The position numbers were made by a program, and so were the translations under genes. 64,000 bases of DNA, taken from positions 1 to 64,000 of the forward strand of contig NZ_KB899426.1 of NCBI RefSeq assembly GCF_000378205.1, in the 5' to 3' direction. Below, piece by piece: positions 225-38,589 of this stretch; positions within the stretch are counted from its first letter, which is position 1, and every line of letters starts with the position of its first letter. The stretch is from Sediminispirochaeta bajacaliforniensis DSM 16054. GTDB taxonomy: Bacteria > Spirochaetota > Spirochaetia > DSM-16054 > Sediminispirochaetaceae. The notes under the pieces were generated by a model. The model was not told the DNA's origin. It ran no database searches and saw only the letters and a list, made by a program, of their open reading frames with translations.

Positions 225-262
225 CTATCTGCCTTCTTATGCATGGGCTTAAGGGTAAAGGA

Positions 263-284
263 ATCACCACGATTCCGAACAGTA
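263..284 (-). repeat. Solo end of the 149-bp inverted-repeat element family
   Basis: The sequence ATCACCACGATTCCGAAC followed by AGTA is the right-hand terminal repeat of the elements at 2474-2622 and 10103-10251, again with TA as the last two bases. No partner end lies 149 bp upstream (around 136), so this is a solitary end. It sits about 45 bp before the start codon of the DRTGG gene and could be part of its leader. Confidence 0.6.
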
Positions 285-329: not shown

Positions 330-674
330 ATGAAACTTACAGAAATAATCGATTTGGTTGAGGGGAAAGTGCTTTGCGAATGCGGGGACCTCGGCAGAGA
401 GATCGAATCGGCCTTTTCCTCGGACCTAATGAGTGATGTACTTACGCTTTTGACCGACAATATGCTGCTTATCACCGGCCTAACCAATATTCAAGCGATC
501 AGGACGGCAGAAATGGCCGATATTGCCCAAATTCTGTTTGTTCGCGACAAACAGCCAACGGCAAAAATGATAGAACTGGCATCGGAAACAGGTATCTGTC
601 TCATTACAACTCGCTTCTCTATGTTCCGAGCCAGCGGTATCCTTTTCGGGCATGGTCTGCCTGCGGTCTACTAA
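330..674 (+). CDS. DRTGG-domain protein of a hydrogenase-like operon
   Basis: A 114-residue protein that looks like a stand-alone DRTGG domain, a small ligand-binding fold of unproven function often encoded beside [FeFe]-hydrogenase-related genes. The residues TDNMLLITGLTNIQAIRTAE and the later LITTRFSMFRASGIL match the usual pattern of such domains. I chose the ATG at 330 because AAGGA lies at 323-327; the same frame is open back to 243, but that extension would translate the repeat end at 263-284. It is followed after 19 bp by a small HATPase gene and then the Fe-S sensor-like gene, so the three are probably one operon. It probably has a regulatory or adaptor role; no catalytic residues are evident. 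Confidence 0.65.
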   Translation: MKLTEIIDLVEGKVLCECGDLGREIESAFSSDLMSDVLTLLTDNMLLITGLTNIQAIRTAEMADIAQILFVRDKQPTAKMIELASETGICLITTRFSMFRASGILFGHGLPAVY

Positions 675-693
675 TCGGGAGGCAGCTTGAGTT

Positions 694-1110
694 ATGCAAT
701 TTCAGTACGAACTCGTCGCAGGCGATTTTACCAAGGCGGGCTACGCTTCCAGCGATTTGAAAAAAAAAATGAAACAGCTCAATATTCCGACCAGTGCTAT
801 GAAGCGAGCGGTGGTGGCACTCTTTGAGGCAGAAGTAAACGTCGTAGCCCACTCGTTTGGCGGGACACTCACCGCAGATATTTTTAAGGATAAGATCCAT
901 GTACTCGTTGCCGACCAGGGACCAGGAATTCCGGATATTGAACTGGCAATGAGTGAGGGTTACTCAACGGCGAGCGATGAAGTCCGGGAGATGGGCTACG
1001 GAGCAGGAATGGGATTACCAAACATCAAAAATAACTGTGACAGTCTCGACGTACGAAGTGCCTCAGGATGCCCCACCGAGGTTGAGTTCACCATCAATTT
1101 CGGGACATAG
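694..1110 (+). CDS. Small HATPase (anti-sigma / switch-kinase type)
   Basis: A 138-residue stand-alone GHKL ATPase domain like serine/threonine switch kinases (RsbW/SpoIIAB type). The N box is visible as E45-A-E-V-N49, the G1 box as VADQGPGIPD with D74, and the G2 box as GYGAGMGL at 101-108. There is no dimerisation/phosphoacceptor domain, so it is not a complete histidine kinase. It lies between the DRTGG gene and the hydrogenase-like Fe-S gene, 6 bp before the latter, and a second stand-alone HATPase sits in the other hydrogenase operon (37228-37779). It probably phosphorylates or binds a partner in response to the Fe-S sensor; the target is not visible here. Confidence 0.75.
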   Translation: MQFQYELVAGDFTKAGYASSDLKKKMKQLNIPTSAMKRAVVALFEAEVNVVAHSFGGTLTADIFKDKIHVLVADQGPGIPDIELAMSEGYSTASDEVREMGYGAGMGLPNIKNNCDSLDVRSASGCPTEVEFTINFGT

Positions 1111-1116
1111 AGAAAG

Positions 1117-2460
1117 ATGCAAAAGAGTTCTTTCCATCATGCCCTCAAGATTGTTGAGGCAAAATGCATCGGTTGTACCCACTGTATGCTCACCTGCCCT
1201 ACCGAAGCGATCAGGGTATTTGGGGGTAAGGCCCACGTTGATCCGAATCGCTGCGTCGACTGCGGTAATTGTATGTCGGTCTGCCCCGTAGATGCCATTG
1301 TGATCGAGCAGGATGACTTCGACCAAATTTATACCTATTCACACCGTATTGCAGTGGTACCTTCGGTAATGATCGGGCAATTCTCCGAAGAAATCCCCGA
1401 ACAGCAGATCTTCAGTATCCTCATCGACATGGGCTTTACCGATGTGTATGAAGCGGAAACGGGTATTGATCTGCTTTATAAGATTTCTGGCCGCTTTTCC
1501 ACCTATGCCGGGCAAAAACCGGTTATCAGCAGTTTCTGTCCGGCCATCATTCGCCTCATTCAGGTCCGATTTCCATCCTTGGTTGGGCAGATAAATCTTC
1601 TCAAGCCGCCACTCGATATTACCGCCGCGTACATCAGAAAAAAACTGACAGAAGAAGGGGCAAATCCTCATGAGATAGGCATTTTCTACGTCACTCCTTG
1701 TGCTGCCAAGATTGCGGCGATAAAGAGACCAATCGGAGAACCCCGAAGTGCCTTTGACGGTGTCATCAATATGGATTTCCTCTATAACCTTATCCACAGA
1801 AATCTTGTAAAGCAGAAAAATCGGAAGGATTGCACCGTACCGCCACCAAGGAGGCTTTCTTCTGCTGCAGTACTCTGGAGCCTGACCACTGGAGAGGCCC
1901 AGCAAATCCCGGGAAGAACCCTGGCAGTCGACGGTATTCATAATGTCATGGCGTTTCTGGAAAAGTTGGAAAACGAAGAGATCTCCGGGATAGATTTTCT
2001 TGAACTAAGAGCCTGCGATGAAGGCTGCGCCGGAGGGATCCTCGGCTCGGGAAACCGGTTCCTCACTGCGGAGCGGCTCCGCCATCGTGCCGAACAACTT
2101 TCGCCCGTATCGGATTATTGCGGGGAAGCCATCTCGGAAGAAATAGCCGATTTTTTGCGTGATACTATCAAGCTGGAAACCGTAGAACCCCGCTCCATCA
2201 TGAAACTTGACGATGACGTGGCTAAGGCCATGGAAATCATGGATACCGCCACCCACATTTTAGAAGCACTGCCCATGGTCGACTGTGGTCTCTGCGGTTC
2301 ACCTAACTGTGAAGCCTTTGCCCGTGACGTGGCTCAGGGAAAGGCAAGTCCTCAGCGTTGTGTCTTTCTTCAGAGACGTCAGGAAAACCTTGATCCCACT
2401 ATGGTCAAAAAAAATCTTTCAACCTTGAAAAAGATCTGGGGAAGAGAGAAGGTGGAGTAG
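1117..2460 (+). CDS. Sensor-type [FeFe]-hydrogenase-like Fe-S protein
   Basis: A 447-residue protein with three parts. Residues 17-56 hold two [4Fe-4S] ferredoxin motifs (C17, 20, 23, 27 and C46, 49, 52, 56). Residues about 75-350 are a hydrogenase large-subunit domain. Residues 390-415 are a C-x2-C-x4-C-x16-C cluster of the Fe-S domain family. The four Cys that would hold the H-cluster are all present (C141, C195, C300, C304). The neighbouring Cys that relays protons in catalytic enzymes is replaced by F140, and the usual GGGQP after the last Cys is GILGSG. Such changes are known from putative sensory [FeFe]-hydrogenases (groups C and D). With the DRTGG and HATPase genes upstream, a role in sensing H2 or redox state is the best inference. 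Low-rate catalysis cannot be excluded. Confidence 0.75.
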   Translation: MQKSSFHHALKIVEAKCIGCTHCMLTCPTEAIRVFGGKAHVDPNRCVDCGNCMSVCPVDAIVIEQDDFDQIYTYSHRIAVVPSVMIGQFSEEIPEQQIFSILIDMGFTDVYEAETGIDLLYKISGRFSTYAGQKPVISSFCPAIIRLIQVRFPSLVGQINLLKPPLDITAAYIRKKLTEEGANPHEIGIFYVTPCAAKIAAIKRPIGEPRSAFDGVINMDFLYNLIHRNLVKQKNRKDCTVPPPRRLSSAAVLWSLTTGEAQQIPGRTLAVDGIHNVMAFLEKLENEEISGIDFLELRACDEGCAGGILGSGNRFLTAERLRHRAEQLSPVSDYCGEAISEEIADFLRDTIKLETVEPRSIMKLDDDVAKAMEIMDTATHILEALPMVDCGLCGSPNCEAFARDVAQGKASPQRCVFLQRRQENLDPTMVKKNLSTLKKIWGREKVE

Positions 2461-7806: not shown

Positions 7807-10005
7807 CTATTCTCTTTTCATGGACAATCCGATCCTACGCCTCTCAAGATCGACGGAAATAACCTTGACCTGTACCTGCTGCTTGAGCCGGACTACTTCC
7901 GCAGGATCCTTTACAAAATGATCGGCGAGATGGCTGATATGAACAAGACCATCCTGATGAACGCCAATATCGACAAAGGCGCCGAAGGAGGTAATGTTGG
8001 TAACAATACCGGGAAGAACCATCCCCTCCCGAAGGTCCTCGGGGCTTCTAACGCCTTCGTCAAACGAGAAAAGCTCAAAGGGGCTTCTCGGATCCCGGCC
8101 AGGCTTTTCGAGCTCGGCCATGATATCACGCAGAGTGGCCATCCCGGTATGTTCATCCATATAGGAAGTAAGGTCGATAGTCGATCGTGCCTTATTGTCG
8201 TCACCAATCAAATCGCCAACGGAGACTCCGACAGTGGCGGCCATCTTTTCAACCAAGGCGTAACGCTCGGGGTGAACGGCAGATGCGTCCAAAGGATTAT
8301 TCGCTCCCCGAATTCGAAGGAAGCCGGCGGCCTGCTCGTATGCCTTCGGGCCGAGACCCGGGACCGAAAGCAGCTGACTGCGACTTTGAAAGGGACCGTT
8401 GCCGTTGCGGAAGGCGATGAGAGAGGATGCAAGCTTTTCTCCGATCCCACTGACATAGGATAATAGCCGTACCGAAGCGCTGTTCAGCTCGACTCCGACG
8501 TTATTTACACAGCTCTCTACGGTTTGATCCAGGGCCTTTTTCAGTGCCTTCTGATCGACATCGTGCTGATACTGGCCGACCCCGATCGATTTGGGATCGA
8601 TCTTCACCAATTCGGCGAGGGGATCCTGCAAGCGCCGTCCGATGGAGACTGCTCCCCGGACCGTGACATCCTGGTCAGGAAATTCTTCCCTTGCAAGGGG
8701 CGAGGCGCTGTAAACCGATGCACCGCTCTCATCCACACTCACCACGCTAACGGAAGCCGGAAGCCCGGCCTCCTTCAGAAAGTCGACGCTCTCACGGCCG
8801 CCGGTCCCGTTGCCCACAGCCACGGCCTCGATATCGTACTGCGCAATCAACTCAAGAACTCTGCGGGCAGCCCCCGCCTTTTGATTCTGAGGTGGTAAGG
8901 GGTAGATGACATCATGCTCCAAGAGCTCTCCTCCTGCGGAGATCACCGCAAGCTTACATCCCGTTCGAAGGCCGGGATCAAGGGCCAAAACGGACCGGGG
9001 ACCAAGAGGAGGCTGGAGCAAAAGCTCCCGCAGATTTTCTCCGAAACGAAGGATCGACTCCTCTTCGGCCCGGGCCACCAAAACTGATTTTAATTCGGTT
9101 TCCATAGAAGGGGCCAAAAGTCTGGAGTAGGCATCCTCGGCCGCCGAAGAAACCTGTTTTGCAGCCTCTCCGTGCAACGGGGTATGAGGCCCTTCCGAGG
9201 CTTCAAGGGAAGATGGGACGCCCCCTACCCGCATGGAAAGATGCTTAACAGAAAGAAGGGCCTCCTCTTCGGAAGGCAGGAGGTGCCAACGTAAAAAGCC
9301 CAAGGCTGCGCCACGGCGAACAGCAAGGACCCTGTGTCCGGCAACGCCCTTCACAGCTTCGTTCCAGTCGAAATAGTCACGAAACCGTGCAGAACCTTTC
9401 GGATCTTCCTCGCACCTCTTCTTCACGGAGATAGCAGAAAACATGGCCTTTCGAGCAAAAAGCTCACGAAGGCAAGCCCTCACCGCCGCCGACTCCGAGA
9501 TAGTCTCGGCAATGATATCCCGGGCACCTCCGAGAGCATCCCCGACACTCGTAATACCCTTATCCGGATCAATAAAATCGGCGGCAGCAGCATCTACATC
9601 ATCACAGCGTCCGGAAACAAGAAGCTCCGCAAGAGGTTCAAGCCCGGCTTCCCTGGCCGTTGAGGCTCGAGTCTTCCGTTTGGGACGGAAAGGAAGGTAG
9701 AGATCCTCAAGCTCGGAAAGGGTCGTTGCCTGGCAAAGAGCCTTCTCCAAGTCGGCGCTTAAAAGATCGCGCTCTTTCAAACTGTCAAGAATAGACTCCC
9801 GCCGTTTCCAGAGCGCCGCTGTCTTTTCCTTTGCCTCGAGTATCCCTCTGATCTCCTCCTCATCAAGTTCGCCCGTTGCCTCTTTGCGATAACGGGCAAT
9901 GAAAGGAACCGTCGCTCCCGAAGCCGAGAGTTCAATAACGGCCCGAACTCCTCGCTCCGGCAGCCCTGTTTCGAGAGTCACGGCCCGTATCAACGCATCG
10001 TCCAT
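7807..10005 (-). CDS. tex: Tex-family RNA-binding transcription accessory protein
   Basis: A 732-residue protein of the Tex/YhgF family. The N-terminal Tex domain runs to about residue 200 (PFIARYRKEATGELDEE). A YqgF-type nuclease-like domain follows (LALDPGLRTGCKLAV), then a helix-hairpin-helix region (LLSVPGLGPKAYEQAAGFLRI). A C-terminal S1 domain completes it (GIVTNITSFGAFVDIGVHQDG). The frame is open to 10275, but I place the start at 10005: reverse-strand TTAAGGAGGAGGCAG precedes that ATG, MDDALIRAV is the usual N-terminus, and the longer form would translate repeat element B. It is the first gene of the run leading to the M16 protease and MATE pump. Confidence 0.93.
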   Translation of the reverse strand: MDDALIRAVTLETGLPERGVRAVIELSASGATVPFIARYRKEATGELDEEEIRGILEAKEKTAALWKRRESILDSLKERDLLSADLEKALCQATTLSELEDLYLPFRPKRKTRASTAREAGLEPLAELLVSGRCDDVDAAAADFIDPDKGITSVGDALGGARDIIAETISESAAVRACLRELFARKAMFSAISVKKRCEEDPKGSARFRDYFDWNEAVKGVAGHRVLAVRRGAALGFLRWHLLPSEEEALLSVKHLSMRVGGVPSSLEASEGPHTPLHGEAAKQVSSAAEDAYSRLLAPSMETELKSVLVARAEEESILRFGENLRELLLQPPLGPRSVLALDPGLRTGCKLAVISAGGELLEHDVIYPLPPQNQKAGAARRVLELIAQYDIEAVAVGNGTGGRESVDFLKEAGLPASVSVVSVDESGASVYSASPLAREEFPDQDVTVRGAVSIGRRLQDPLAELVKIDPKSIGVGQYQHDVDQKALKKALDQTVESCVNNVGVELNSASVRLLSYVSGIGEKLASSLIAFRNGNGPFQSRSQLLSVPGLGPKAYEQAAGFLRIRGANNPLDASAVHPERYALVEKMAATVGVSVGDLIGDDNKARSTIDLTSYMDEHTGMATLRDIMAELEKPGRDPRSPFELFSFDEGVRSPEDLREGMVLPGIVTNITSFGAFVDIGVHQDGLVHISHLADHFVKDPAEVVRLKQQVQVKVISVDLERRRIGLSMKRE

Positions 10006-10102: not shown

Positions 10103-10251
10103 TAGTGTTCCGAATCCTGGTGGTATCCATACCCTTTTGCCGGTAAAATCCTTATTTTTATGTCGGCACCGATTTTTTTCCATAGTTTTGCTTTCAATTG
10201 ACTGCGAGGAAACGAATTGTGGCCCTTTAACCACCAGGATTCGGAACAGTA
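10103..10251. mobile_element. 149-bp MITE-like element, copy B
   Basis: The left end TAGTGTTCCGAATCCTGG (10103 on) and the right end, which reads TACTGTTCCGAATCCTGG on the other strand (10229-10251), match over 21 of 23 bp. It is exactly the same length as copy A, with shared interior blocks CCGG-AAAATCCTTA at +37 and AATTG...AGGAAA at +93. It ends in TA on both sides. It lies in the divergent gap between tex and epmA, so it may affect promoters on both sides. Confidence 0.75.
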
Positions 10252-33153: not shown

Positions 33154-33175
33154 TAGTGTTCCGAATCCTGGTGAT
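33154..33175 (+). repeat. Solo end of the 149-bp inverted-repeat element family
   Basis: TAGTGTTCCGAATCCTGG followed by TGAT matches the left end of copies A and B, with GGTGAT instead of GGTGGT as in the other solo end at 263-284. No partner end is found 149 bp away (near 33302). The first 7 bases are also repeated just upstream at 33144-33150. It lies between PhoH and the end of the hydrogenase operon. Confidence 0.6.
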
Positions 33176-33252: not shown

Positions 33253-35004
33253 CTATTTGCGGTAGAGCGGTCTCGGCGTATAGCCGGTATGAAGCAACTC
33301 GTGGCTCTTGTGGCCCAAAGGTTCACCAAGGAACTCTTTGTAGATCTGAGAGATCTCAGGGTTTTCATGGCTACAGCGAACAGCAGAGTTAACATCGTCC
33401 TTGTAGAGCCCTGCGATTCTCTTTTTTCGGACCTCGTCGGTAGTACCGTAAGGCTGGCCACCGCCGGAGATACAACCGCCTCGGCACGCCATTACCTCGA
33501 TAAAATGATAAGGGGGTTCTTCGCCCTTTTCACGGGCATCCCGGACCTCATCGAGGATCTGGCTCACATTGGCCATACCATGGGCAATTGCAACCTTTAC
33601 CTTTTTGCCGTCGATATCGACCTCTCCCTTTCTCACACCTTCGACACCGCGGACCTCATTAACCTCAACCTTTTCCAGCTCCTTGCCGGTAATAAGCTTA
33701 TGAGCGGTACGTAGCGCAGCCTCCATAACACCTCCGGTAACACCGAAAATGGTACCTGCACCGGAGTATGCACCGATGGGGCTATCCGCCTTCTCGTCCT
33801 TCAGGCTTGCAAAATCGATCCCCATCGCCTTGATGAGACGTGCAAGTTCTCTCGTAGTCAGAACAACATCGACATCCTGGTAACCCGAGCTGTACATCTT
33901 TTCACAGCGGGTAATCTCATATTTTTTCGCGGTACAAGGCATGATGGCGGCAGAGTAGATATTTGCCGGATCGATCTTCTTTTTCTCGGCATAGTAGGTC
34001 TTGGTGATTGCACCCTGCATCATCATTGGGCTTTTTGCCGTCGAGAAATTGGGAATCATATCCGGGTAGTACTTTTCCATGAAGTCCGTCCATGCAGGAC
34101 AGCAGCTGGTGATCTGCGGGATTGCACCGGTTCCCTTGGTGAGCCGCTGAACCAGCTCGCTTCCCTCTTCCATGATGGTAAGGTCGGCGGAAAAATTGGT
34201 ATCGAATACCGCATCTATCCCCAGCTTGCGCAGTGCAGCATAGATCTTTCCCGTGCTGATCTCCCCAGGTTCCATACCGAAGGCCTCTCCAAGAGCGACC
34301 CTAACTGCGGGAGCAATCTGGACGGCAACATGCTTTTCGGGATCTCTGATGGCAGCAAGCAGTTTTCCGGTTTCATCCTTTTCGAAGATGGCTCCAACCG
34401 GACAGTGGGCCGAACACTGACCACACTTGATACAGGGACTGTCGTTCAAGCTATCATCGGCAGAGGGTGCAATTCTTACATTCTCACCGCGTCCGATAAA
34501 CTCAAGGGCCCATACACCCTGCATAACCTGACACACATTGGCACAGCGGCCGCAGTTTACGCATTTTTCCGGGTTGAACACGATCGACGGAGTCGATGTG
34601 TCGGGTTCGATCTCACGTATCCGCTGTTCAAAGGGCTGCTCCCGGATACCGAAATCCGCTGCAAGCTTCTGAAGTTCACAATTCCCGTTCCGTCCGCATT
34701 TAAGGCAGTCGTTGGGGTGAGTCGAAAGAATCAATTCAATGACGGTACGTCTGATCTCATGGAGTTCTGGATCATGGGTAATGATGCCCATCCCTTCGGA
34801 AACAGGGGTGGCGCAGGCCCTAACCATTTTGGGGCTGTTCTCCAACTTTACAACGCAAATACCACAGGCGGCCCAGGGGGGAAGGTCGGGATGATAGCAA
34901 AGAACGGGAATCTTTACATTCACCTGCTCTGCTGCCTTGAGAATGGTCGTTCCTTCGGGAACCTGGACCGATTCGCCGTTGATTCGTATATTGACGGTTT
35001 TCAC
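33253..35004 (-). CDS. hydA: [FeFe]-hydrogenase catalytic subunit of a bifurcating-type complex
   Basis: A 583-residue catalytic subunit. Residues 36-64 form a plant-type [2Fe-2S] site (C36, C47, C50, C64), 96-109 the His-Cys cluster (H96, C100, C103, C109), and 148-201 two [4Fe-4S] clusters. The H-cluster domain has TSCCPAW (relay C301, ligand C302), MPCTAKK (C357) and MACRGGCISGGGQP (C507, C511). All catalytic residues are intact, unlike the sensor-type protein at 1117-2460. It forms H2 with electrons from NADH and ferredoxin together with the nuoF- and nuoE-like subunits. It starts at GTG 35004 after AAGGAGGAAACCG and is last in the operon. Confidence 0.95.
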   Translation of the reverse strand: MKTVNIRINGESVQVPEGTTILKAAEQVNVKIPVLCYHPDLPPWAACGICVVKLENSPKMVRACATPVSEGMGIITHDPELHEIRRTVIELILSTHPNDCLKCGRNGNCELQKLAADFGIREQPFEQRIREIEPDTSTPSIVFNPEKCVNCGRCANVCQVMQGVWALEFIGRGENVRIAPSADDSLNDSPCIKCGQCSAHCPVGAIFEKDETGKLLAAIRDPEKHVAVQIAPAVRVALGEAFGMEPGEISTGKIYAALRKLGIDAVFDTNFSADLTIMEEGSELVQRLTKGTGAIPQITSCCPAWTDFMEKYYPDMIPNFSTAKSPMMMQGAITKTYYAEKKKIDPANIYSAAIMPCTAKKYEITRCEKMYSSGYQDVDVVLTTRELARLIKAMGIDFASLKDEKADSPIGAYSGAGTIFGVTGGVMEAALRTAHKLITGKELEKVEVNEVRGVEGVRKGEVDIDGKKVKVAIAHGMANVSQILDEVRDAREKGEEPPYHFIEVMACRGGCISGGGQPYGTTDEVRKKRIAGLYKDDVNSAVRCSHENPEISQIYKEFLGEPLGHKSHELLHTGYTPRPLYRK

Positions 35005-35019: not shown

Positions 35020-36807
35020 CTACCGTACGTAGACGGCGTCGAATTTACATGCTTTGTAGCATTCACCGCACTTGATACAAATATCATGATCGATTTCATG
35101 AAGCTGTCTCCGCTCTCCGTTGATGGCATGAACGGGACACTTTCTGGCACATACACCGCAACCGATACATTTGTCGGCGAGGATATGGTAGCTGATCAGC
35201 GGTTTACACTTTCCTGCGGGACAACGCTTATCCTTGATATGCGCCTTGTACTCGTCCCCGAAATAATGGAGGGTCGACATGACCGGGTTCGGAGAGGTCT
35301 GGCCGAGACCGCAGAGACTTGCCTTCTGCATCGCCTTCCCGATGGTCTTGAGTTTTTCGATATCCTCCATCTCTCCTTCGCCTTTTGTGATTCGGTCGAG
35401 GATGTTGTAGAGGGTCCGCCCGCCGACACGGCAGGGGGCACACTTTCCGCAAGACTCTTCAACGGTAAAACCGAGATAAAACTTGGCGACATCGACGATA
35501 CAGTCGTCTTCGTCCATGACGATCATTCCGCCGGAACCCATGATCGAACCCAACTTCTGCAGCTGTGAATAATCGATGGGGGTATCAAGATAGTCGGCGG
35601 TAATAACACCACCGGAGGGGCCACCGGTCTGCACAGCCTTAAAAGCCTTGTTTCCGGGGATCCCGCCGCCGATATCGTAGACAATCTCTCGTAAGGTGGT
35701 TCCCATCGGGACCTCTACCAAACCGGAGTTTCTGATCTTTCCGGTAAGGGCGAACACCTTTGTTCCCTTGGAATCTTCGGTTCCAATCTTGGCAAACCAA
35801 TCGCCGCCGCGGGAAATGATGACGGGCACATTCGCCCAGGTTTCAACGTTGTTGATGACCGTGGGACAACCCCAAAGTCCCTTTGTAGCAGGAAAGGGAG
35901 GCCTCGGTTTCGGCATTCCTCGTTCGCCCTCGATGGAGGCGAGAAGAGCGGTTTCTTCACCGCAGACAAAGGCACCGGCACCAAGTCTGATCTCTATATC
36001 GAAATCAAAACCGCTGCCAAGGATATCTTTGCCCAAAAGGCCGTACCCTCTCGACTGCTCCATGGCAATCTGAAGGCGCTTGATGGCAAGCGGATACTCG
36101 GCCCGAATGTAGATATAGCCCTGATTCGCACCGACGGCGATACCTGCGATGGTCATCGCTTCGATGATCGAATGGGGATCACCCTCAAGGGTCGACCTGT
36201 CCATATACGCACCGGGATCACCTTCGTCGGCGTTACAAACGATGTATTTGACATCGCCGGCAGCCTGTTTGGTGAAGTTCCATTTCATCCAGGTAGGGAA
36301 ACCGGCCCCGCCACGGCCCCTAAGCCCTGCAGCCTTCAATTCATTGATGATATCCTCGGGCTTCATATCGAAGAGGGCCCTTTCCAGCGCCTTGTAGCCG
36401 TCGCGGGCTATATATTCATCGATATTTTCGGGATTTATAACACCGCAGTTTCTCAAGACGATACGAAACTGCTTCTGGTAGAACTCGATATCCTCGACCC
36501 TCGCCCGTTTCTTACTCTCGTCTCTATTGTACAACAGCCGCTTAACCTCACGGCCTTTGACGATATGCTCGGAAATGAGCTCTTTTGCATCTTCGGGCGA
36601 AACACGCACGTAAAAAGAATCTTCAGGAAGAATCTTGACGATTGGTCCCTGTTCGCAGAAACCGAAACAACCGGTTTTTACGACCTGGACCGTATCCTTT
36701 AAGCCCTGGGCCTCACATTCCGCAATGAGGTTCTTGAATATTTGGTCCGATTTGCTTGATTCACAGCCGGTACCGCCGCAGACAAGAATATAGTTTGTAA
36801 ATGCCAT
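35020..36807 (-). CDS. hydB: NuoF-like NADH-binding subunit of the hydrogenase
   Basis: A 595-residue flavoprotein. The N-terminal thioredoxin-like [2Fe-2S] domain has C10, C15, C47 and C51. The NuoF core holds the FMN/NADH loops GRGGAGFPTWMKW and GAGAFVCGEETALLASIEG and the [4Fe-4S] SCGKCAPCRVG. The C-terminus carries two ferredoxin clusters (CIGCGVCARKCP, CIKCGECYKACK). This matches HydB of electron-bifurcating hydrogenases, where FMN is the branch point between NADH and ferredoxin. GGAGGAACCGGAAC precedes the ATG. It is 15 bp before hydA. Confidence 0.94.
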   Translation of the reverse strand: MAFTNYILVCGGTGCESSKSDQIFKNLIAECEAQGLKDTVQVVKTGCFGFCEQGPIVKILPEDSFYVRVSPEDAKELISEHIVKGREVKRLLYNRDESKKRARVEDIEFYQKQFRIVLRNCGVINPENIDEYIARDGYKALERALFDMKPEDIINELKAAGLRGRGGAGFPTWMKWNFTKQAAGDVKYIVCNADEGDPGAYMDRSTLEGDPHSIIEAMTIAGIAVGANQGYIYIRAEYPLAIKRLQIAMEQSRGYGLLGKDILGSGFDFDIEIRLGAGAFVCGEETALLASIEGERGMPKPRPPFPATKGLWGCPTVINNVETWANVPVIISRGGDWFAKIGTEDSKGTKVFALTGKIRNSGLVEVPMGTTLREIVYDIGGGIPGNKAFKAVQTGGPSGGVITADYLDTPIDYSQLQKLGSIMGSGGMIVMDEDDCIVDVAKFYLGFTVEESCGKCAPCRVGGRTLYNILDRITKGEGEMEDIEKLKTIGKAMQKASLCGLGQTSPNPVMSTLHYFGDEYKAHIKDKRCPAGKCKPLISYHILADKCIGCGVCARKCPVHAINGERRQLHEIDHDICIKCGECYKACKFDAVYVR

Positions 36808-36820
36808 GTTCCGGTTCCTC

Positions 36821-37213
36821 CTATTCTACAATGTCGGCGGCGGGCCGGTCGTAGATATGATCGTTGACCAGAGCCTTACCCTGAATGTGTTTACGCACAA
36901 TCTTTCGGGCCACCTCTGCATCAACCTTACCGTAGATCACGTCGGGCATATCCGGCATAATTACCTCAACCGTAGGCTCAACATAGCAGAGCCCCATACA
37001 TCCGGTTTGAGTCACCATCACCTTTTCGGTGAGCTTTTTCTCATCAAGCTCCTGAAGGAAGGCATCGAGTGTCTCCTTCGCACCGGCCGCGATTCCACAC
37101 GTCCCCATTCCGACAATGATCTGTATGTTTTTATCAGCAACATCTCGTTTATTGAGTTCTTTTTTCTTGGAATCTCTCAACTTCCTGAGTTCTTCCAGGG
37201 TCATTTTTGCCAT
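36821..37213 (-). CDS. Thioredoxin-like [2Fe-2S] ferredoxin, HndB type
   Basis: A 130-residue protein like HndB of NADP-reducing hydrogenases: a short helical N-terminus (TLEELRKLRDSKKKELNKRD) and a thioredoxin-like ferredoxin fold. The second Cys pair is present in TQTGCMGLCYVEP, but in the first site only C39 is seen (GTCGIAAGA), where four-Cys ferredoxins have a second Cys five residues on. Cluster binding is therefore uncertain. The ATG at 37213 follows GAGGAGGCCAGAG, better than the one at 37228. It probably passes or tunes electrons within the complex. Confidence 0.85.
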   Translation of the reverse strand: MAKMTLEELRKLRDSKKKELNKRDVADKNIQIIVGMGTCGIAAGAKETLDAFLQELDEKKLTEKVMVTQTGCMGLCYVEPTVEVIMPDMPDVIYGKVDAEVARKIVRKHIQGKALVNDHIYDRPAADIVE

Positions 37214-37227
37214 CTCTGGCCTCCTCA

Positions 37228-37779
37228 TTAGTCTCTATCATCTTCCTGACTTATTAGGAAGGTTCGGAGAAGCGACAGGGAAGAAGCGCTCCGGAAATCT
37301 CCAAGCGCATCCGCAAGCTCGCTCCTGGTAATTTCGTACCGATGAAGATTATCACCGGATTTCAAGCTACGTCGAAACACCATTTCATACTCGCTGCTCC
37401 AGGTAAGAGCAGGGAGAAGAAAAGCAGGCAACGCCCCGATCGGAGGCAGATCAATGTTATCCTTCGGAAGAACAAAAGAGATGCAGGTCCCTTTTCCTTT
37501 TTCCGAAACAATCTCGACCGTTCCATCGACCTGTTCGACCATTTGCAGTAAGAAGGGAATACCCAAACCTACTTTCCTTTGTCGGTGTTTTGTTCCGTCC
37601 GAGTAAAACGGGTCTTTCGCCCGTTCCAGCTCCTGTTTGCTCATCCCGCAGCCGTTGTCACGAAGTGTTACGGCTATCTGTCTCTCATCCTCATCGAAGC
37701 TCAACTCAATGAGCGATGCCTTTGCCTCGATGGAGTTCTGGACAAGATCAAGCAGAAGATCACAGACGGACTCGTGCAT
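37228..37779 (-). CDS. HATPase-domain protein of the hydrogenase operon
   Basis: A 183-residue protein with a histidine-kinase-type ATPase domain and no phosphoacceptor domain. The N box is LVQNSIEAKA (N15), the G1 box is RDNGCGMS (41-47), and the G2 box is KVGLGIPFLLQM (69-80). The last 50 residues are unrelated and unrecognised. Such ATPase genes recur between nuoE-like and nuoF-like genes of bacterial hydrogenase clusters; their job is not established. It overlaps the nuoE-like stop by one base. Compare the smaller HATPase at 694-1110. Confidence 0.82.
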   Translation of the reverse strand: MHESVCDLLLDLVQNSIEAKASLIELSFDEDERQIAVTLRDNGCGMSKQELERAKDPFYSDGTKHRQRKVGLGIPFLLQMVEQVDGTVEIVSEKGKGTCISFVLPKDNIDLPPIGALPAFLLPALTWSSEYEMVFRRSLKSGDNLHRYEITRSELADALGDFRSASSLSLLRTFLISQEDDRD

Positions 37780-38264
37780 CAGCTCTCCTGAAATTTCGCC
37801 AGTATCTCCGGGAGTTGCTCCTTGGTCAGTTTTCCGAACACCTCATCACCGATCACCATCACGGGAGCAAGGCCGCAACAACCGACACAGCGCACAGCTT
37901 CAAGCGAAAACTGTCCGTCGGGAGTAACCTGATTGACACCAATCCCGAGAATATTCTCGAGTTCCTGAATGATGTCCTCCCCCCCCTTCAGATAACACGC
38001 AGTCCCCATACACACCTGAATATTGTGTTTTCCGGGTTTTGTCAGCTTAAAGAAATGATAAAACGTGACCACACCGTAGATTTTTGCCAGTGGGACATCC
38101 AACATTGAGGCAACCCGTTTTGCCGCTTCACGAGGAATATAGCCGAACTCTTCCTGAACCTTATGCAGGATCATGATCAAGTTTCCCGGCTTATTTTTCC
38201 ACTCCTCAATGAAGGCAACCAACGAATCAGAGAATTTCATCTCAACTTCACTCTGCACAGACAT
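37779..38264 (-). CDS. hydC: NuoE-like [2Fe-2S] subunit of the hydrogenase
   Basis: A 161-residue thioredoxin-like ferredoxin of the NuoE/HydC family, with the cluster ligands in CMGTACYLKG (C-x4-C) and RCVGCCGLAP (C-x3-C). It pairs with the NuoF-like subunit as the NADH module. TTGGAGGTTCC directly before the ATG at 38264 decides the start; the frame extends 8 codons upstream. It is the first gene of the operon hydC - HATPase - HndB-like - hydB - hydA, which ends at the terminator at 33192. Confidence 0.93.
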   Translation of the reverse strand: MSVQSEVEMKFSDSLVAFIEEWKNKPGNLIMILHKVQEEFGYIPREAAKRVASMLDVPLAKIYGVVTFYHFFKLTKPGKHNIQVCMGTACYLKGGEDIIQELENILGIGVNQVTPDGQFSLEAVRCVGCCGLAPVMVIGDEVFGKLTKEQLPEILAKFQES

Positions 38265-38589
38265 GGAACCTCCAAAAAAATTTAACATCTGCCCAACACA
38301 GTTTCCCTGAGCATATTAGAGCAAAAATCAGACAAAAGGCAAGATAATAACCACTTCTTTTATTTATATTGTGAAAAAACATTGAAAAATGATTGCACCA
38401 AAGAATAATAAACAGTAATATTAAGTAATTTTTGTGAAATGCGTTTTTTAAATGTTCGAGTTTGCAACAAAGAACAACAATTAGGGCTTGCAAAAAAATG
38501 AAATATAGCACATTTTCTATTATATGTTATATGTTTCACAGAAAGCACGTAATTTTTCTTAAAAACCAAAACAAAGGGAACGGTAAAGT
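38265..38589. promoter_or_regulatory. AT-rich divergent control region of hydrogenase operon and rex
   Basis: About 325 bp of strikingly AT-rich sequence separates the divergent hydC and rex genes, with no supportable gene (small ORFs here are low-complexity Phe/Lys/Asn-rich). It contains Rex-like half sites TTGTGAAA at 38369-38376, TTGTGAAAT at 38432-38440, and the better two-half site at 38525-38540. Exact promoters could not be assigned. Confidence 0.6.
38525..38540 (+). promoter_or_regulatory. Candidate Rex-binding site
   Basis: TGTTA-TATGTT-TCACA matches the core of the known Rex site (TTGTTAA or TTGTGAA, 4-6 bp, inverted half), with 16-bp spacing kept. It is 50 bp before the rex ATG and 260 bp before hydC. 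This fits autoregulation and possibly control of the hydrogenase operon. Confidence 0.5.

Follow-up and report, generated by a model that had tools for sequence, protein, structure and literature searches.

An operon for a putatively sensory group D [FeFe]-hydrogenase, a SpoIIAB-like ATPase and a DRTGG protein in Sediminispirochaeta bajacaliforniensis, and its genomic links to HydABC

TamHydS of Thermoanaerobacter mathranii is the one characterised member of the group D (M2e) [FeFe]-hydrogenases. The papers devoted to it describe slow H2 turnover in both directions (PMC8163306), an alternative proton path through E252, E289, D265 and S/T249 (PMC10407848) and a change of secondary structure in response to H2, and they include a call by the authors for the identification of interaction partners (PMC13104023). 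In published group D work the site of the proton-relay cysteine is mostly occupied by alanine, and there is an earlier notice on thermocellum hydrogenases (PMC3492117). The group C proteins TmHydS, HfsB of Thermoanaerobacterium and HydS of R. albus are likewise putative H2 sensors that lack the relay Cys, and deletion of HfsB alters both fermentation and hydrogenase activity (PMC5707799, PMC11837493).

The window analysed here is a stretch of 64,000 nucleotides from S. bajacaliforniensis DSM 16054 (contig NZ_KB899426.1), near the start of which lie three genes:

330-674, + strand: DRTGG1, a stand-alone DRTGG-domain protein of 114 aa (Pfam PF07085)
694-1110, + strand: HATPase1, a SpoIIAB-like ATP-binding switch protein of 138 aa (PF02518/PF13581)
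1117-2460, + strand: HydS, a group D (M2e) [FeFe]-hydrogenase-like, putatively sensory protein of 447 aa (PF02906, two Fer4, PF04060)

The ORFs bear out the description in an earlier note on this DNA of three co-directional genes separated by 19 bp (DRTGG1/HATPase1) and 6 bp (HATPase1/HydS). A longer DRTGG ORF from position 243 begins inside flanking repeat sequence, and comparison with homologues supports 330 as the probable start. Contig C21, from a genome of 4.57 Mb and 75 contigs, ends at the first base of the window, so that the region upstream of the operon is cut off; in the sister genome G001, a single contig of 4,653,970 bp, the operon is immediately preceded by transposase ORFs (L039). 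A promoter scan did no better than on shuffled sequences.

HydS comprises two N-terminal 4Fe-4S motifs, an H domain and a C-terminal Cx2Cx4Cx16C cluster (C390, C393, C398 and C415), in the same order as in TamHydS, and has no PAS domain. As the earlier note had stated, it retains the four H-cluster cysteines (C141, C195, C300 and C304), carries Phe140 at the relay-Cys site (SSFCPA), lacks GGGQP (L3 reads ACDEGCAGGILGSG) and is thereby set apart from the catalytic HydA of the same window, in which TSCCPAW and CISGGGQP are intact. The replacement of the relay Cys299 that marks group D is thus found in HydS, here by Phe. Arg298 occupies the CpI Met497 site and Thr193 the CpI Met353 site, where T or S stands in 101/101 aligned rows. 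The AF2 model of HydS (pLDDT 82) finds its best matches, as fold matches only, among [FeFe] hydrogenases.

In a hydrogenase tree of 71 rows, in which groups were assigned by domains and motifs and TamHydS and groups B and E-G are absent, group D forms one clade (48 rows, SH-aLRT 99) that is sister to group C, the group with a PAS domain, and well removed from group A. HydS falls within this clade and not with the group A enzymes, so that the placement named in the earlier note as a refutation did not come out. A group A catalytic enzyme was rejected on the tree and on the lack of the TSCCP relay Cys, GGGQP and Met353/Met497, and HydS scores 82 bits against TIGR02512, for which the cut-off is 405.95. 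Membership of group C was also rejected: Pfam detects no C-terminal PAS domain in HydS, whereas it is present in the group C protein that this genome also encodes. By its sequence HydS is therefore assigned to group D (M2e, TamHydS-type) as a putatively sensory hydrogenase.

A search of the Bacillota loci for a protein with the residue positions of TamHydS did not find it, so that the comparison with TamHydS relies on published residue numbers mapped by alignment. On this mapping the group D proton path of HydS consists of E260, E296, D272 and T257; the equivalents of TamHydS E252, E289 and D265 are retained in 97, 100 and 99 of 101 rows, and position 257 is mostly Thr or Ser across the aligned rows. 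The two proteins share the loss of the relay Cys, the change of Met353 to Ser/Thr and the Glu/Asp proton path, but TamHydS has Ala137 and Leu291 where HydS has Phe140 and Arg298. Because loss of the relay Cys is common to all of group D and TamHydS is still slowly active, Phe140 alone argues neither for nor against sensing, and reduced rather than zero H2 turnover is to be expected. An inactive H domain is not favoured as the default reading, given the conserved Cys and proton-path residues; HydF is present. Group C proteins differ from HydS in their fused PAS domain, and a SpoIIE-type phosphatase is found next door both in hfs and in the group C locus of this genome, whereas none lies beside HydS. 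The latter locus (L057:7282-10186, contig C12) encodes a PAS-bearing group C HydS followed by the phosphatase, like hfsB-hfsC of Thermoanaerobacterium.

HydS belongs to a supported Bacteroidota/Spirochaetota subclade (support 99) whose members carry Phe or Tyr where CpI has C299. An aromatic residue is found there in 86/100 rows, and Arg or Lys occupies the M497 site in 82 of these 86 and in none of the 14 non-aromatic rows, never being paired with a small residue at the C299 site, a coupling that is confounded by the shared ancestry of the rows. Among Bacillota, 28 rows combine Ala/Ser at the C299 site with Leu/Gln at the M497 site, and none has Arg/Lys at the latter. Both sites flank the diiron subsite, so that access to the active site could be blocked by Phe140 and Arg298; within the aromatic subclade the four H-cluster Cys, Lys198 and the Glu/Asp residues of the group D proton path are nearly invariant. 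The Phe/Arg pocket is a natural variant that spans two phyla and offers a test of how the H-cluster is tuned for sensing as against catalysis.

HATPase1 is a stand-alone GHKL ATPase with the catalytic Glu and the N, G1 and G2 boxes of SpoIIAB, RsbW and RsbT. Its profile matches the anti-sigma factor and serine kinase SpoIIAB (E 1e-11), which provides its nearest solved relatives, and E45, N49, DxGPGI and GxGAGMGL are conserved. Its score against TIGR01925 is 46.7 bits with a cut-off of 135, and the RsbW models also remain below cut-off. HATPase1 resembles SpoIIAB (RsbW/RsbT-like) in its stand-alone architecture, in the Glu46 and Asn50 positions and in DxGxGIPD, but it has an extra conserved GxGAGMGLPN lid and no sigma factor or STAS gene nearby, and its partner would be HydS, CBS or DRTGG. 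When all ORFs of 100 neighbourhoods were clustered, no conserved STAS, PP2C, response regulator, sigma factor or transcription factor was found near HydS. The PP2C or STAS partners for which the earlier note proposed a survey are accordingly not conserved around group D HydS, and the candidate SpoIIE phosphatase is part of the group C locus instead. The phosphorelay put forward in the same note was rejected as well: the 138-aa protein is a HATPase only, with no His phospho-acceptor domain and no conserved response regulator as receiver. HATPase1 probably acts as an ATP-dependent switch, for which serine-kinase or partner-switch chemistry may be envisaged. Its close relatives (E 1e-30 or better) number one or two per genome in 13 distant HydS genomes.

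DRTGG1 scores 27.1 bits against PF07085 (cut-off 25.2). Its AF2 model (pLDDT 95) matches the DRTGG structures 2ioj and 3l2b and the HprK N-domain, and a fold like that of AF1212, the DRTGG domain of CBS-pyrophosphatase and the HPr kinase N-domain is predicted. The conserved Ser35 (in SDLMSDV) is, speculatively, a candidate phospho-acceptor.

The neighbour survey suggested in the earlier note shows the linkage of the DRTGG, HATPase and HydS genes to be kept across phyla, against the lack of linkage that the note had named as a refutation, and neighbourhood comparisons place it far above chance expectation. Among 100 loci picked by HydS similarity, and hence not independent, HATPase1 lies upstream of HydS in 98 (with a gap of <30 bp in 76), DRTGG1 lies upstream in 86 and a second DRTGG gene, DRTGG2, lies downstream of HydS in 54; the exceptions for HATPase1 are L123, cut by a contig end, and L083, which is rearranged with HATPase1 downstream. 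A search for relatives found the HATPase adjoining group D HydS in 20/20 spirochaete genomes that have it, several of these spirochaete loci being without an upstream DRTGG1, and in 30/30 Bacillota loci the HATPase immediately precedes HydS. Bacteroidales usually have the order DRTGG1-HATPase1-HydS-DRTGG2-PHP-HATPase2-TrxFd-HydB-HydA-HydC, and in Bacillota HydC follows PHP. DRTGG1 and HATPase1 form a single gene in seven Bacillota loci, as do HydS and DRTGG2 in L167, and Pfam confirms examples of both fusion types; fused genes usually encode parts that act together. TamHydS resembles HydS in its adjacent HATPase, noted by its authors, and in having HydABC nearby, and the accessible text of the TamHydS papers refers to an AraC regulator and to neither DRTGG or PHP partners nor an alternative with CBS.

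Within the window, HydABC and a repeat family were located as follows:

33253-35004, - strand: HydA, catalytic group A subunit of the bifurcating hydrogenase and putative end of the regulated unit (FeFe_hydrog_A6, NCBIfam, 817.9 bits)
35020-36807, - strand: HydB (NuoF-like)
36821-37228, - strand: TrxFd, a small thioredoxin-like 2Fe-2S protein (weak PF01257, below cut-off)
37228-37779, - strand: HATPase2, a second stand-alone HATPase of a different family, inside the HydABC operon (PF02518, 67.4 bits)
37779-38288, - strand: HydC (NuoE-like; PF01257, 177.3 bits)
262-284 (+ strand), 2474-2496, 2600-2622, 10106-10122, 10232-10248 and 33157-33173: copies of a 23-nt repeat with the core CACCACGATTCCGAACA

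The position of HATPase2 within HydABC operons is conserved, and so is that of TrxFd between HATPase2 and HydB. The repeat core occurs six times in the window, against 0.03 expected, and includes two inverted pairs; copies flank the HydS operon and another lies just 3' of hydA. They are probably IS/MITE terminal repeats.

A search of spirochaetes with HATPase1 brought up a second family, present in many of them, in which this HATPase forms one protein with a CBS pair, of 305-354 aa at most loci. DRTGG2 and PHP come after its gene, and DRTGG1 often comes before it. This module adjoins HydC-HATPase2-TrxFd-HydB-HydA in most of the fetched spirochaete regions, 13/20 of which were chosen for a nearby HydA. 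The genome studied here has its own copy:

L142:7003-7962 (contig C4): CBS-HATPase, followed by DRTGG2 at 7949-8284 and PHP extending to 9009

The HydS operon, DRTGG2-PHP and HydABC are thus three separate loci in this genome. In L153 the CBS-HATPase stands directly upstream of HydS, and in L230 and L232 the module is found within a spirochaete Nqr/Rnf-like operon together with HydB, HydC, HATPase2 and a short Fe-S protein lacking the H domain; G038, the genome of L232, has no PF02906 match at all. Since L230 and L232 carry the module with HydB/HydC but without an H domain, it appears to track the NADH-handling HydBC unit. The CBS-fused and HydS-linked forms are largely separate in the HATPase tree, which has few columns and is weakly supported at its deep branches. 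The CBS pair is presumably an adenylate sensor, and a single SpoIIAB-like switch seems to take either HydS or CBS as its input. The regulatory region of CBS-pyrophosphatase (3l2b, 3l31) is similar in its DRTGG fold and in the use of CBS together with DRTGG, but here CBS is fused to the HATPase, DRTGG is separate and there is no pyrophosphatase domain. On contig C4 the CBS-HATPase-DRTGG2-PHP genes are followed by ORFs that resemble homocysteine-synthesis genes, and a STAS and RsbW-like HATPase pair lies about 1 kb away on the opposite strand (L142:5178-6079).

On balance, and with considerable room for doubt, the locus is best read as a group D sensory-hydrogenase operon in which HydS would act through HATPase1 and a DRTGG/PHP complex on the HydBC unit, here HydABC. 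HydS would read H2 or redox state at its H-cluster and pass a conformational change on to HATPase1, which would act in complex with the DRTGG1 and DRTGG2-PHP proteins. The output would set how much of the NADH-handling HydBC unit is present or how active it is, the unit in this genome being the bifurcating HydABC hydrogenase. In the sister loci the CBS pair would feed this switch from the corresponding genomic position. The suggestion in the earlier note that the H-cluster state is signalled through the HATPase may therefore be kept in conditional form; it gains from the gene fusions and the CBS/HydS exchange and loses the Phe140 substitution as its basis.

TamHydS turns over H2 both ways (PMC8163306), HydS keeps the residues of the group D proton path and HydF is at hand, all of which would suit a slow catalytic, redox-balancing hydrogenase that does not sense H2, with the HATPase and DRTGG proteins as assembly or regulatory factors for HydS or HydABC. 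This is nevertheless unlikely, as HydS retains neither the relay Cys nor Met353 or Met497, the subclade having acquired Phe and Arg, and the exchange of CBS and HydS before the same HATPase is hard to explain by an enzymatic role alone. The same replacements, with Phe/Tyr at the C299 site in 86/100 rows and Arg/Lys at the M497 site in 82, both flanking the diiron subsite, could instead mean that the aromatic/Arg subclade has no working [2Fe] subsite and that HydS is an Fe-S redox sensor or scaffold reporting the state of ferredoxin or NADH to the HATPase. The occurrence of the module with HydBC in G038, which lacks PF02906, implies that H2 is not always the signal and agrees with such a role, yet the near-invariant H-cluster Cys, Lys198 and proton-path Glu/Asp would be unexpected if H2 chemistry had been lost, and we hold this explanation to be decidedly unlikely.

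STAS proteins are the classical targets of SpoIIAB-type kinases, and the genome has both the STAS-HATPase pair near CBS-HATPase and a SpoIIE-type phosphatase beside the group C HydS. An operon that serves co-expression only, its HATPase targeting unlinked STAS/PP2C partners of a general stress pathway, is very improbable all the same in view of the near-universal adjacency across phyla, the gene fusions and the lack of any conserved STAS/PP2C gene beside HydS.

Group D HydS proteins are already known, and what is new and testable here is the signalling architecture proposed for the sensory operon. The fusions and the HydS/CBS exchange name HATPase1, DRTGG1 and DRTGG2 as partners and thereby make the partner question directly testable. 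A broader picture is advanced tentatively and a little short of even confidence: one SpoIIAB-like ATPase with DRTGG/PHP would form a modular system that takes interchangeable H2-sensor or CBS inputs and controls HydBC hydrogenases and Nqr/Rnf-like pumps, and its Bacteroidota/Spirochaetota branch would have rebuilt the H-cluster pocket with Phe/Tyr and Arg. Neither DRTGG, PHP or CBS partners of group D HydS nor a module with exchangeable inputs was found described in the open literature searched. Fermenters of the gut, the rumen and sediments carry the system, and the H2 that they put out matters.

A 705-aa H-domain protein encoded on contig C1 of the same genome (L005, near 224770-225453), the C-terminal half of which resembles a chemotaxis (MCP) signalling domain, looks like a further sensory-type hydrogenase, and L145:999-1673 on contig C39 holds the pieces of a disrupted FeFe-hydrogenase gene (SMACPGGCVGGPG) that may be of group B.
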